Positions 58,809-63,360 of a DNA stretch of 64,000 nucleotides are shown here, one piece after another. This stretch comes from an uncultured Kordia sp. Lineage in GTDB: Bacteria; Bacteroidota; Bacteroidia; Flavobacteriales; Flavobacteriaceae. The notes beneath the pieces are model-generated. The model did not search any database. It was not told the origin of the DNA and worked only from the letters and a program-made list of their open reading frames with translations. Location of the stretch: positions 1-64,000 of the forward strand of contig NZ_CANLEA010000007.1 of NCBI RefSeq assembly GCF_947489565.1. Direction: 5' to 3'. The position numbers and the translations under genes were made by a program. The stretch's first letter is position 1, and every line of letters starts with the position of its first letter.

Positions 58809-59531
58809 ATGAAAAAGGCATACTTTAATTGGAGTACAGGAAAAGATTCTTCGCTGGCTTTATATCATATTTTACAACAAAAAGAATACAATGTAACGCA
58901 ATTAGTGACTACGGTCAATAAAGATTACGAACGTGTTTCGATGCATGGTTTGCGAGAAGCACTGTTGGATGCGCAAGTGGAACGTTTGCAATTGCCTTTG
59001 CAAAAAATATACTTTCCAGCGGAAGTCACCATGTCCGATTATGACAAAGCAATGCGCAACGCTACTCAAAAGCTGATTGAGCAAGATTATAAGTATGGAA
59101 TTTTTGGAGATATCTTTCTAGAAGATTTACGAAAATATCGTGAGGAAAAACTACAAGAAGTCGGTATTACAGGTGTTTTTCCACTTTGGAAGCAAGATAC
59201 AAAAGCCTTATTGAAAGAATTTCTCTCGTTAGGCTTTAAAGCCATTACAGTTTGTGTCAATGCGAAATTGTTGGATGAATCGTTTGTAGGTAGAATTTTA
59301 GATGAAGACTTTATCAATGACTTGCCTGAAAACGTTGATCCTTGTGGCGAAAACGGAGAATTTCATACATTTACCTTTGATGGACCTATTTTTTCGTCTC
59401 CGATTGATTTTACAATTGGCGAAAAAGTGTTAAAAACCTACGCACCATCTAAAAAAGAGGAAGATACTTGTGGCTCAGATGATTCTAGTTGGGATCGGGC
59501 TTTTTGGTATTGTGATTTGATTCCGAAATAG
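58809..59531 (+). CDS. PP-loop ATPase of the Dph6 (diphthine--ammonia ligase) family
   Basis: 240-residue adenine-nucleotide alpha-hydrolase. The PP-loop is AYFNWSTGKDSSLALYHIL, with STGKDS as the ATP-phosphate motif. The RVSMHGLREALLDAQVERLQL segment and GVFPLWKQDTKALLKEF match the Dph6/MJ0570 group. NVDPCGENGEFHTFTFDGPIF is a conserved C-terminal signature. Bacteria lack diphthamide, so the archaeal/eukaryotic reaction cannot be the real job and the bacterial role is unknown. The gene stands alone after aroQ. Confidence 0.85.
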   Translation: MKKAYFNWSTGKDSSLALYHILQQKEYNVTQLVTTVNKDYERVSMHGLREALLDAQVERLQLPLQKIYFPAEVTMSDYDKAMRNATQKLIEQDYKYGIFGDIFLEDLRKYREEKLQEVGITGVFPLWKQDTKALLKEFLSLGFKAITVCVNAKLLDESFVGRILDEDFINDLPENVDPCGENGEFHTFTFDGPIFSSPIDFTIGEKVLKTYAPSKKEEDTCGSDDSSWDRAFWYCDLIPK

Positions 59532-59884: not shown

Positions 59885-59949
59885 CTTAAAACGTACAAAA
59901 TCTCTTATTGCAAATAAAAAGCAAATAGAGAAAAGAAACAATAAAAAAA

Positions 59950-59981
59950 GAGGTCGTTAAAGTTGCCTTTAAAACGACCTC
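59950..59981 (-). terminator. Terminator of the first RiPP precursor gene
   Basis: GAGGTCGTT (59950-59958) pairs with AACGACCTC (59973-59981); on the minus strand the T run follows the stem. It lies 26 bases after the stop at 60007. Confidence 0.75.
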
Positions 59982-60006
59982 AATAATTATCATAGTTAGT
60001 TAAAGT

Positions 60007-60228
60007 CTACTGTTCTTGTTGGCAAGGAATGTCTCTGGTGATACATAATTGTATGCTCAAACAAGAAACACATGTATTGTTGTGCTGTGTATAGGTAATA
60101 CATGACATCACTCTACTGCAAATGGACCAAGTCTGTGATCCATCTCTTCCACCAATAATTTGATTTGGAGTTAAGTCAGAAATGGAATTTTTGTTAAGCT
60201 GTAAATTTTTTAAATTTCGTTTTTTCAT
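60007..60228 (-). CDS. RiPP precursor, class I lanthipeptide-like (array member 1)
   Basis: 73-residue precursor. The leader MKKRNLKNLQLNKNSISDL has the K(x)L(x)LNKxxIS motif of Bacteroidota class I lanthipeptides (pinensin-type leaders). A Gly-Gly cleavage site follows at IIGGRDG. The core has six Cys and eleven Ser/Thr (SICSRVMSC ... TCVSCLSIQLC), which suits thioether or disulfide rings. No LanB/LanC dehydratase or cyclase gene lies in the window, so the product class is inferred from the leader. It has its own terminator at 59950. It is the leftmost of four similar genes on the minus strand. Confidence 0.8.
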   Translation of the reverse strand: MKKRNLKNLQLNKNSISDLTPNQIIGGRDGSQTWSICSRVMSCITYTQHNNTCVSCLSIQLCITRDIPCQQEQ

Positions 60229-60309
60229 AATAGATAAATTTTAAAATTAATAATGAATTAAAAGTATTGATAATGAATCTATTATGAGTAAGTGTTTATG
60301 TAGTGCAGC

Positions 60310-60357
60310 GTGCAATTTATAAATTAACAGGCATAAGTATTGCACAATTTATGAATT
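60310..60357. repeat. Paired GTGCAATTTATAA-type motifs upstream of precursor 1
   Basis: GTGCAATTTATAAATT (60310-60325) and GCACAATTTATGAATT (60342-60357) share one core, and TTATGAAATTGCAC (61186-61199) near precursor 3 is an inverted relative. Their position 80-130 bases before precursor genes suggests operator sites, but chance in AT-rich DNA is possible. Confidence 0.4.
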
Positions 60358-60403
60358 GAAATATTGGCAATACAATTCTAGTAGTCGAATGACATTAAAA
60401 TAA

Positions 60404-60473
60404 AAGCGAACTTCGGTTTAGTCATTGCTGGAAGATTTTTTCTTCCGACCATAACTAATTTCGGTTCGCCTTA
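60404..60473 (-). terminator. Extended terminator of RiPP precursor 2
   Basis: AAGCGAAC (60404-60411) and GGTTCGCCTT (60463-60472) are the arms of the terminator found after precursors 3 and 4, but here ~50 bases separate them, including a second hairpin (GGAAG / CTTCC). On the minus strand a T run follows. Confidence 0.7.
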
Positions 60474-60478
60474 AAAAA

Positions 60479-60718
60479 TTACCTTACAGTTTCTGTACAA
60501 GGTCCTATTTCTCCAGGATCTGTAGTATTACATCCAAAATCTATTGAAGGACAGTCATTCGCTACTGAAGGGCAAGTGTGTGAACCACATATTTTTGGAT
60601 GCGAATCACAACCAGGAAATAACCATGATCCTGCATTACCTCCTGTCAAATCGCGAACTTGAAGGCTGGAAATTGATTTTTTGTTAAGCTTAAGAGAATT
60701 AAGATTCTTTCTTTTCAT
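60479..60718 (-). CDS. RiPP precursor, class I lanthipeptide-like (array member 2)
   Basis: 79 residues from the Met at 60718; the longer frame to 60787 adds a hydrophobic run that is not part of the leader. The leader MKRKNLNSLKLNKKSISSL is nearly that of member 1, and the cleavage site is LTGGNAG. The core carries six Cys (FPGCDSHPKICGSHTCPS and three more, ending GPCTETVR) among Ser, Thr, Asp and Pro. The shared leader motif and the shared terminator arms with members 3 and 4 show a common origin. Its terminator has been expanded by about 50 bases. Confidence 0.8.
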   Translation of the reverse strand: MKRKNLNSLKLNKKSISSLQVRDLTGGNAGSWLFPGCDSHPKICGSHTCPSVANDCPSIDFGCNTTDPGEIGPCTETVR

Positions 60719-60836
60719 AATAAATGATTTTAATATTAATTGTTTAAAAGTCAGGTAAATAATGAGCGGAAACAATAGAGAATACAAATTTGTAGTGTTT
60801 TAATTCATATTCGTAAAAACAAAATAGACATAAAAA

Positions 60837-60856
60837 AAGCGAACCGAAGTTCGCTT
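60837..60856 (-). terminator. Terminator of RiPP precursor 3
   Basis: AAGCGAAC-CGAA-GTTCGCTT, a perfect 8-base stem, with a run of T on the minus strand. It is identical in stem and loop to the one at 61205. Confidence 0.85.
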
Positions 60857-60875
60857 AATTTGATAATTACATTAA

Positions 60876-61124
60876 TTAACAAACGTTAAAAGTATCATCT
60901 GATGAATACCAGCAACCTGTTGGTTTGTTCGATTTACCATCACAAACAGTTTCTATAGTATGCGGGTCACATTGCGTACAATGCGTTTGTTGTGATAAAC
61001 ATACATCTACAACAACTGTTGCACAATTTCTAGAATAGGTCGGAATTTGACCTCCGCGTAGCGCATTAAAATTAGAAACTTGCGTTTTGTTAAGCGCTAG
61101 GCTTTTGAAACTCTTTTTTTTCAT
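60876..61124 (-). CDS. RiPP precursor, class I lanthipeptide-like (array member 3)
   Basis: 82-residue precursor with leader MKKKSFKSLALNKTQVSNF and cleavage site ALRGGQI. The core has seven Cys (RNCATVVVDVCLSQQTHCTQ, C at TVCDG, GCWYSS and NVC) and many Thr/Ser. A 28-base segment of the leader coding sequence (61067-61094) is identical to that of member 4 (61397-61424), so these two separated recently. It has its own terminator at 60837. The maturation enzymes are not encoded nearby. Confidence 0.8.
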   Translation of the reverse strand: MKKKSFKSLALNKTQVSNFNALRGGQIPTYSRNCATVVVDVCLSQQTHCTQCDPHTIETVCDGKSNKPTGCWYSSDDTFNVC

Positions 61125-61204
61125 AATCTAAATGATTTTATGTTAATACTTTCTAGTTCGTGAAGTAGTAAAATGTTACCCTATGTTATGAAATTGCACA
61201 AAAA

Positions 61205-61224
61205 AAGCGAACCGAAGTTCGCTT
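61205..61224 (-). terminator. Terminator of RiPP precursor 4
   Basis: AAGCGAAC-CGAA-GTTCGCTT with a T run on the minus strand, the same hairpin as at 60837, which shows that gene and terminator were copied together. Confidence 0.85.
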
Positions 61225-61232
61225 ATAAGTTG

Positions 61233-61454
61233 TTAGGCAACTGAGCAATCACAGGAATGTTCATTATTTTCTGTGACACAAGCACAAGTACCAAAAAAAG
61301 TACCTCCAGGTGGACAAAAATCAGTATCCTGTGTTGGATGATTTGTGCAAATAAATCTGAATGTAGTAATGCTTCCTCCTTTAATTTTTGATGCTGTAAA
61401 ATTAGAAACTTGCGTTTTGTTAAGGCGTAAATTTTTTGGATTCTTTTTTTTCAT
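61233..61454 (-). CDS. RiPP precursor, class I lanthipeptide-like (array member 4)
   Basis: 73 residues from the Met at 61454; the longer frame to 61529 adds a hydrophobic run upstream of the leader. The leader MKKKNPKNLRLNKTQVSNF is closest to member 3, and the cleavage site is IKGGSIT. The core has six Cys (FRFICTNHPTQDTDFC, GTCACVTENN and EHSCDCSVA) with Thr-rich spacing. It is the rightmost array member and probably the first of the cluster in the direction of transcription. It has its own terminator at 61205. Confidence 0.8.
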   Translation of the reverse strand: MKKKNPKNLRLNKTQVSNFTASKIKGGSITTFRFICTNHPTQDTDFCPPGGTFFGTCACVTENNEHSCDCSVA

Positions 61455-61588: not shown

Positions 61589-61906
61589 TTATTTGTGCTC
61601 AAGAGTTTTTGTTCTCAGATATTTTTTCTCAATATAAAACGTTGCAAAAGGAACTAACGATGCAATAAATAAAATAGCAAAACGCTTCATTGTCCATTTT
61701 TGTTCTTCCGTAACTAAATAAGCAAATACCACATAAATTACAAACAAAAGACCATGTGCCATTCCTACAATCTTATTCGGCATGGTAATTTCCATCATAT
61801 ACTTTAATGGCATTGTAATAAAAAATGCGATGTATGAAATTCCTTCCGCTATGGCAATCCAACGAAAGTTTTTTAAAGTTTTTGTTTCTCTGATAGTTGA
61901 GTCCAT
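61589..61906 (-). CDS. DUF3817 family membrane protein
   Basis: 105 residues from the Met at 61906; the frame extends to 61969 but that part overlaps the terminator of lpdA. The protein has three membrane helices. The first segment, FRWIAIAEGISYIAFFITMPLKYM, is the hallmark of DUF3817 (YdzA-like). IVGMAHGLLFVIYVVFAYLV and MKRFAILFIASLVPFATFYI complete the set, with a conserved His in the GMAHG turn. The function is unknown. A short basic tail (EKKYLRTKTLEHK) closes it. It is monocistronic, downstream of lpdA. Confidence 0.85.
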   Translation of the reverse strand: MDSTIRETKTLKNFRWIAIAEGISYIAFFITMPLKYMMEITMPNKIVGMAHGLLFVIYVVFAYLVTEEQKWTMKRFAILFIASLVPFATFYIEKKYLRTKTLEHK

Positions 61907-61933
61907 AAATATAAACGTAAAAAAGTATAAAAA

Positions 61934-61960
61934 AAGCCGCTCTAGGAGCAGCTTTTCAAA
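61934..61960 (-). terminator. Terminator of lpdA
   Basis: AAGCCGCTC / GAGCAGCTT stem with CTAG-type loop and one mismatch; a T run follows on the minus strand, 9 bases after the lpdA stop. Confidence 0.75.
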
Positions 61961-61968
61961 ATATATCA

Positions 61969-63360
61969 TTAAATGTGAATGACTTCATCATACGCATCAG
62001 CAACTGCTTCCATGACTGCTTCACTCATGGTCGGATGCGGATGGACAGCTTTTAATACTTCGTGTCCTGTAGTTTCTAATTTTCTACCCAATACAGCTTC
62101 GGCAATCATATCAGTCACACCGGCACCAATCATATGGCAGCCTAACCATTCTCCGTATTTAGCATCAAAAATTACTTTTACAAAACCTTCTTTATTTCCA
62201 CCTGCGCTAGCTTTTCCAGATGCAGAGAACGGGAACTTACCAACTTTGATATCGTATCCTTGCTCTTTTGCTTGTGCTTCTGTTAAACCAACCGAAGCAA
62301 TTTCTGGAGAACAGTACGTACATCCAGGAATATTTCCATAATCTAAGGCTTCTACATGCATTCCTGCAATTTTCTCTACACACAAAATTCCTTCCGCAGA
62401 AGCAACGTGAGCTAAAGCTTGTCCTGGCGTAACATCTCCAATTGCGTAATATCCAGGAATATTCGTTTGGTAGTAATCGTTTACTAAGATTTTATCTCTA
62501 TCGGTAGCAATTCCAACAGCTTCCAATCCAATATTTTCAATATTTGTTTTAATTCCAACAGCCGATAATACAATGTCAGCTTCTAAAACTTGTTCTCCTT
62601 TTTTCGTTTTGACGGTAGCTTTTACGCCATCGCCCGAAGTATCAACCGAAGTAACTTCTGCAGAAGTCATCACTTTAATTCCACTTTTCTTAAACGAACG
62701 TTCTAACTGTTTAGAAACATCTGCATCTTCTACAGGAACAATCTTAGGCATATATTCTACAACAGTAACTTCTGTTCCCATTGAGTTATAAAAATAAGCA
62801 AACTCCACACCAATCGCTCCAGATCCTACTACGATCATCTTCTTTGGTTGTGTTGGCAAGGTCATTGCTTCGCGGTAGCCAATAACTTTCTTTCCATCTT
62901 GTGGCAAGCTTGGCAACTCACGCGAGCGTGCTCCAGTAGCAATCACAATATGTTGTGCACTATATTCGGTTACTTTTCCATCAGCATCTTTTACATCGAT
63001 CTTCTTTCCAGCTTTCAAGGTTCCAAAACCGTTCAATACATCAATCTTATTCTTTTTCATTAAGAACTGAACACCTTTGCTCATTCCGTCAGCAACACCA
63101 CGACTACGTTGTACGACAGCGTCAAAATCCTTATCGTATTCTTTCACTGACAATCCGTAATCTCCAGCATGTTTCAAATATTCAAAAACCTGTGCTGATT
63201 TCAATAAAGCTTTCGTTGGAATACATCCCCAGTTTAAGCAAACTCCACCAAGACTTTCTTTCTCAACGACTGCGGTTTTAAACCCTAATTGAGAAGCTCT
63301 AATGGCAGTTACATATCCACCAGGACCACTTCCTAAAACGATGATATCGTATGTACTCAT
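61969..63360 (-). CDS. lpdA: Dihydrolipoyl dehydrogenase
   Basis: 463-residue flavoprotein, the E3 component of pyruvate, 2-oxoglutarate and branched-chain dehydrogenase complexes, which reoxidises dihydrolipoamide with NAD+. FAD motif: IIVLGSGPGGYVTAIRASQLG. The redox disulfide is Cys41-Cys46 in GGVCLNWGCIPTK. The NAD domain has VVGSGAIGVEFAYFYNSMG. The C-terminal dimer interface has HPHPTMSEAV with catalytic His442 and Glu447. Length is normal. The gene is not next to E1/E2 genes. A promoter-like CAAATTTA (minus-strand TAAATTTG) lies 34 bases before the start. Confidence 0.95.
   Translation of the reverse strand: MSTYDIIVLGSGPGGYVTAIRASQLGFKTAVVEKESLGGVCLNWGCIPTKALLKSAQVFEYLKHAGDYGLSVKEYDKDFDAVVQRSRGVADGMSKGVQFLMKKNKIDVLNGFGTLKAGKKIDVKDADGKVTEYSAQHIVIATGARSRELPSLPQDGKKVIGYREAMTLPTQPKKMIVVGSGAIGVEFAYFYNSMGTEVTVVEYMPKIVPVEDADVSKQLERSFKKSGIKVMTSAEVTSVDTSGDGVKATVKTKKGEQVLEADIVLSAVGIKTNIENIGLEAVGIATDRDKILVNDYYQTNIPGYYAIGDVTPGQALAHVASAEGILCVEKIAGMHVEALDYGNIPGCTYCSPEIASVGLTEAQAKEQGYDIKVGKFPFSASGKASAGGNKEGFVKVIFDAKYGEWLGCHMIGAGVTDMIAEAVLGRKLETTGHEVLKAVHPHPTMSEAVMEAVADAYDEVIHI

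Follow-up and report, generated by a model that had tools for sequence, protein, structure and literature searches.

The window, i.e. the whole 64,000-nucleotide stretch of Kordia DNA analysed here, contains four consecutive minus-strand genes for short peptides (Table 1). An earlier note on this DNA had described an array with a shared leader layout and a Gly-Gly site, and the array is present as described: the N-termini read MKKR, MKRK or MKKK, followed by L.LNKxxxSx(L/F) and then by Gly-Gly at the leader end (4/4 genes). The LxLxKx5L leader motif is exact in genes 1 and 2; genes 3 and 4 have F in place of its final L. Core Cys, for which the note had given six or seven, number 6, 6, 7 and 6 in genes 1-4.

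Table 1. Predicted precursor genes, identical leader segments and hairpins of the array in the window.
Feature	Position	Strand	Description	Basis
Precursor gene 1	60007..60228	(-)	73 aa; leader LQLNKNSISDL..IIGG; core 6 Cys	ORF call
Precursor gene 2	60479..60718	(-)	79 aa; leader LKLNKKSISSL..LTGG; core 6 Cys	ORF, inner ATG at 60718
Precursor gene 3	60876..61124	(-)	82 aa; leader LALNKTQVSNF..LRGG; core 7 Cys	ORF call
Precursor gene 4	61233..61454	(-)	73 aa; leader LRLNKTQVSNF..IKGG; core 6 Cys	ORF, inner ATG at 61454
28-base leader segment of gene 3	61067..61094	(-)	identical to the gene 4 copy	exact match
28-base leader segment of gene 4	61397..61424	(-)	identical to the gene 3 copy	exact match
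Terminator-like hairpin of gene 1	59941..59990	(-)	unrelated sequence	
Terminator of gene 2	60403..60472	(-)	same arms around a nested hairpin	fold -26.8 kcal/mol
Hairpin terminator of gene 3	60837..60856	(-)	exact copy	fold -11.0 kcal/mol
Hairpin terminator of gene 4	61205..61224	(-)	exact copy	fold -10.0 kcal/mol

The identical 28-base leader segment claimed for genes 3 and 4 is exact and goes beyond family-level similarity: at least 28 identical bases occur in 9/235 leader pairs within one locus versus 0/3000 sampled other pairs. Because such a long run is rare outside same-locus pairs, the two genes are likely to be related by local copying or conversion. Their cores are 26% identical, near the background (mean 22%, 95th percentile 32%), so the low core similarity reported before is borne out. 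Core relatives of gene 2 lie at three other loci (C5:129575, C5:344518 and C20:37612) and one of gene 3 lies elsewhere (C3:205485), which means that dispersal counts alongside local copying. The proposal that whole gene-plus-terminator units were copied is supported for genes 3 and 4; against it, the terminator is family-wide and relatives of the gene 2 and gene 3 cores are found at other loci.

The hairpin AAGCGAACCGAAGTTCGCTT stands exactly behind genes 3 and 4, and its arms recur behind gene 2, again as noted earlier. In the gene 2 terminator the family hairpin arms are kept, with an extra stem and a nested hairpin between them. The array is not the sole owner of this 20-base element, however, because the genome holds 14 exact copies and 36 with up to two mismatches; the pattern read backwards has no occurrence in the same genome search. 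Most copies (26/36) follow a leader gene at a distance of up to 200 nt, which for these rules out a generic genome element, and the GCGAAC..GTTCGC hairpin is found up to 250 nt downstream in 26/256 leader genes. The element is associated with the leader family, a minority of whose genes use it. Finding it unchanged behind both gene 3 and gene 4 is therefore by itself no proof of a recent copy, and a private terminator proving recent copying is ruled out by the 36 copies.

A leader family spread over the genome

Further leaders were searched for in 1.79 Mb of the 6.4-Mb genome (28%, window included), i.e. in stretches chosen for leader, LanC or terminator matches, with an HMM trained on the own-genome leaders of these same stretches. 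It gave 260 matches at E<0.05, and 257 leader genes were retained at E<0.003. The same HMM found 0 leader genes in a reversed copy of the same DNA and 0 in the 0.97 Mb of DNA taken from other Bacteroidota at 80 loci, which rules out chance ORFs or a model artefact. Forty random 20-kb tiles from the unsampled part contain 4 leader genes; scaled to the 3.8 Mb unsampled, this count predicts ∼19 more (Poisson range roughly 5-49), so that the genome total is estimated at ∼280. The note had suggested seeking further LNKxxxS leaders elsewhere in the genome; leaders of the family were found in their hundreds.

Gly-Gly is present in 239/257 leader genes. Two of the 257 have mis-trimmed starts and were left out of the core analysis (255 genes), while the composition analysis kept them. 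The 255 genes are distributed over 137 loci (76 single genes and 61 arrays of 2-6), the window array being one of ten four-gene arrays, and comprise 193 core families, 163 of which are single genes. Two neighbouring leader genes (C3:96944-97120 and 97238-97414, locus L146) code for one and the same 58-aa peptide, the core of which is acidic and poor in Cys; the family is thus not uniformly Cys-rich.

In a six-frame search of the genome, the NCBIfam model NF038153 ('class I lanthipeptide' leader) has at least 150 matches (E up to 10). No other model matches all four array genes, and NF038153 does so weakly: hmmscan scores for genes 1-4 are 20.9, 19.6, 17.2 and 10.9 bits, all below the cut-off of 22 bits. 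In the six-frame genome search, gene 1 reaches 22.5 bits and genes 2 and 3 stay under the 22-bit cut-off, while gene 4 is absent among the 150 matches listed and was found by the genome-trained HMM. A Pfam search of the four array proteins gave no match.

Compared with the long ORFs of the same stretches, the cores are enriched in Cys (13.9x), Pro (2.5x) and Thr (2.0x) and poor in Lys (0.29x). Across 193 dereplicated cores (one per family), Ser/Thr are enriched at positions -5 (z 9.4) and -6 (z 6.3) from Cys and also two after it (z 7.3), and are depleted at +1, +4, +6 and +8; adjacent Cys are depleted as well (z -8.1). When the first Cys only is considered (164 cores), the register has the same direction and is weak (z 2.3 at both -5 and -6). 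The Ser/Thr preference on the N-terminal side of Cys fits N-to-C lanthionine rings, whereas disulfides would leave it unexplained.

Enzymes, relatives and regulators

The window had been said to lack LanB and LanC, and no such enzyme is present there. Distant LanB, LanC and C39-ABC genes, which the note had proposed to search for, were found far away on contig C2. The note would have been refuted by a genome with no modification enzymes or no other leaders of this type, and on both points the outcome favours it. The genome contains a single Lant_dehydr_N (PF04738) match. PF04738, PF14028 and PF05147 match at C2:165345-169724, and a C39 peptidase with an ABC domain lies within C2:164-176k. The locus encodes a LanC of 405 aa and a split LanB (an N-part of 759 aa and a PF14028 part of 302 aa), with the C39-peptidase ABC protein (PF03412) on the opposite strand. 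It also contains genes for a TPR protein, a TPR-HTH_18 protein and a sigma-70-like protein (the last just below the Pfam cut-off), and three leader genes. These three are the only ones at the LanB locus (3/255); the other 252/255 lie away from it. The only LanB is on a contig other than that of the window, and no LANC_like match was found on the window contig.

The LanC at C2:165345 has WCYG and CHG motifs, which were read by eye as CCH type and which we take to be the usual zinc ligands. For the known cyclases that act on scattered precursors, a published account (PMC11251773, in the part covered) gives the CCC type. Six LANC_like frames are found in the genome, all of 340-427 aa and thus too short for a LanM; LANC_like matches in frames of LanM-type size (974-982 aa) occur in three relatives (G001:C34:229372, G005:C2:129796 and G007:C5:128579) and not in the own genome. 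Several LanC-like genes form modules with a nucleotidyltransferase-like gene and a leader gene in the absence of LanB (L010:9450-11495, L011:6801-10063 and L013:9221-11551); the nucleotidyltransferase of these modules might conceivably activate Ser/Thr. Two of the LanC-like proteins (C2:226449 and C6:19832) are without zinc-ligand motifs.

The arrangement recurs within the genus. All 11 genomes (11/11) have exactly one PF04738 match with an adjacent LANC_like gene and a C39 gene 7-10 kb off, and NF038153 matches per genome (E up to 0.05) range from at least 37 to at least 80. The relative G003 has a single LANC_like gene, at its LanB locus, and at least 39 leader matches at E up to 0.05; one enzyme set thus coexists with many precursors. 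Beyond the genus, the survey took in one genome from each of 118 further genera in the family (leader threshold E up to 1e-3). LanB is present in 13/118 and leaders are present in 4/118. Among the matches listed, leaders occur in 4/13 LanB-positive vs 0/105 LanB-negative genomes (Fisher p 9e-5; all p-values given here treat genes and genomes as unrelated and ignore kinship), so that none was found in 9/13 LanB-positive genera. In two of these genomes (G071 and G023), leader and LanB are no more than 2 kb apart; the distance is ∼11 kb in G042, and in G122 the leaders are on other contigs.

The slot occupied by the array extends from the side of the gene at 61589-63360, presumably lpd (the names of the flanking genes are likewise our assumption), to the gene at 58809-59531. 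It holds 1-4 leader genes in 8/10 relatives and none in 2/10, and the members differ between species. G007 has an ortholog of gene 1 at the same slot with all six core Cys kept; the pair differs by amino-acid changes in 7/26 leader and 16/44 core codons, with 8 and 7 silent changes, respectively. A further subfamily at this slot, which is not represented in the own array, hardly varies among five relatives. The slot, as compared across these genomes, gains and loses members, with some cores conserved.

Leader genes are also accompanied by a family of putative regulators, 46 members of which were collected by BLAST and 31 of which were picked by a tail pattern as TPR-AraC regulators. A leader gene lies within 1.5 kb of 32/46 members vs 380/1806 genes, and 50-136 nt downstream on the same strand of 28/31 TPR-AraC regulators vs 82/1806 genes overall, both numbers being raised because the stretches had been chosen for leader matches. 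The layout comprises an apparent signal peptide, TPR, a hydrophobic segment and an AraC-type end (e.g. L008:14887-16911, which is C2:169886-171910); TPR and HTH_18 are Pfam-confirmed in one regulator, and the signal peptide and hydrophobic segment were judged by eye. A 32nd regulator (C2:395740) missed the tail pattern and has a weak leader match behind it (E 0.015). Regulator-linked peptides have LNK in 1/28 leaders and a Cys content of 8.6 vs 11.4%. The ORF list shows no TPR-AraC regulator beside the window array.

Probably shared enzymes and alternative readings

On these sequence comparisons, the four array genes are probably unlinked ('orphan') precursors in a RiPP system of the class I lanthipeptide type, sharing one LanB/LanC/C39 set. 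The suggestion that one distant enzyme set may serve several precursors is the best interpretation, and the scale would exceed what the note envisaged. The split LanB would bind the leader and dehydrate core Ser/Thr, the LanC would join Cys to dehydrated residues that in most cases precede it by five or six positions, and the C39 transporter would cut after Gly-Gly and export the peptide. With one enzyme set for many precursors, cores would be free to diversify under a conserved leader. Local copying (genes 3 and 4) and dispersal (the core relatives of genes 2 and 3) may both give rise to new genes, often together with the common hairpin. The peptides may serve antagonism, signalling or both; that they are secreted and act on neighbouring cells is a guess. 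The leader, which fits the Bacteroidetes class I LanA motif, and the finding of leaders outside the genus in LanB-positive genomes only, among the matches listed, support the lanthipeptide reading. Against it are the absence of an enzyme from the window, the NF038153 hmmscan scores below cut-off (4/4), the 9/13 LanB-positive genera with no leader among the matches listed, the weak register at the first Cys, the marginal preference for even Cys numbers, which would suit disulfides, the further LanC-like genes beside precursors of their own and the CCH, not CCC, type of the cyclase.

Cys-rich cores, a prevalent Gly-Gly (239/257) and C39 transporters, with no LanB nearby, would also be expected of unmodified, disulfide-bonded secreted peptides, in which the GG leader serves C39 only, as in double-glycine bacteriocins or microcins; even core Cys numbers are marginally favoured too (109/191, p 0.06). 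We nevertheless regard this as unlikely, given the Ser/Thr-to-Cys register with its asymmetry, the twofold Thr enrichment of the cores and the occurrence of leaders outside the genus in LanB-positive genomes only, although C39 is widespread (8/14 control genomes). It also appears quite unlikely that the array is modified by other enzymes, i.e. by a further LanC-like/nucleotidyltransferase module or a radical SAM maturase. G003 has no LANC_like gene besides that of its LanB locus and yet at least 39 leader matches, even though further LanC-like genes adjoin leader genes of their own in the present genome. As to a maturase, gene 2 reaches 16 of the 25 bits of TIGR04149 (rSAM-modified RiPP), and rSAM-modified peptides are listed for Kordia in the covered part of PMC11118758; however, only one of the four SPASM genes (C18:16378) has a leader gene less than 4 kb away, and none is on the window contig. 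TIGR04149 does not match genes 1, 3 and 4. With the TIGR04149 score under the cut-off and no SPASM match on the contig, rSAM modification of the array is not supported.

A multigene family under birth and death, in which most duplicates are decaying or neutral and each copy contributes little function, would account for the fast turnover of the slot (2/10 relatives leaderless, members differing between species) and for the many core families that are single genes (163/193). It would not lead us to expect four intact frames with GG and Cys retained, a slot subfamily nearly unchanged in five genus genomes or the conservation in G007 of all six core Cys of gene 1, and we consider it highly improbable.

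If the four genes do share one LanB/LanC/C39 set, (i) the prochlorosins would have a class I equivalent of several times their size, in a culturable genus; (ii) many-substrate lanthipeptide synthesis would have evolved with LanB/LanC as well as with LanM; (iii) such synthesis would run on a CCH, not a CCC, cyclase; and (iv) ∼190 core families would form a natural library for one enzyme set. Gene-cluster mining would miss most of these precursors, because 3/255 are at the enzyme locus. A broader and more tentative view is that of a genome-wide class I factory (∼280 precursors at more than 100 loci, with one LanB/LanC/C39 locus), in which at least 28 sensor-paired precursors might form a communication network and a part, including the window array, might be freely diversifying output. 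Through the regulator-peptide pairs, the purpose of such libraries would become accessible to experiment.

Comparison with known systems

Class I LanA peptides of Bacteroidetes, in the covered part of PMC7268733, have an LxLxKx5L leader, Gly-Gly and C39 proteases. The Kordia genome has the same leader motif (see also NF038153), GG, C39 and a split LanB with LanC, and the pinensins treated in the same text are a Bacteroidetes class I lanthipeptide with a split LanB, as here. By contrast, those LanA genes are described inside biosynthetic clusters, whereas 252/255 genes here are off the LanB locus. The class I lanthipeptides of Chryseobacterium and Runella were made in Escherichia coli, with LanB/LanC dehydrating and cyclising them, and the account as covered (PMC9993889) gives one precursor peptide per cluster, beside the enzymes; here the precursors are unlinked.

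Up to 176 precursors in a Bacteroidota genome have been reported, with Kordia named as RiPP-rich (Gao et al. 2024, PMC11118758), so richness itself is not new. That report concerns the same genus and large numbers of lanthipeptide and rSAM-type precursors; its main text, in the part covered, is without the single-LanB trans arrangement, the core register or the regulator pairing. In the literature searched, within the parts covered, neither a single LanB with unlinked precursors in the hundreds nor TPR-AraC regulators directly upstream of leader genes are described.

A parallel in arrangement is provided by the prochlorosins and synechococsins, for which the covered part of PMC10783134 gives 29 scattered precursors in the case of the LanM ProcM and 79 in that of the LanM SyncM. 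Like the prochlorosins, the Kordia precursors are scattered, with a conserved leader, GG, variable Cys cores and one enzyme presumed to be promiscuous. Prochlorosins, as described in that text, are made by a class II LanM from precursors with Nif11-type leaders, whereas here a split LanB/LanC, another leader and ∼280 precursors are found, and promiscuity is deduced from the genome. As judged from its genes, the Kordia system is not a member of the prochlorosins: it has no LanM-sized LANC_like frame, its cyclase reads as CCH type and its leaders belong to another family.
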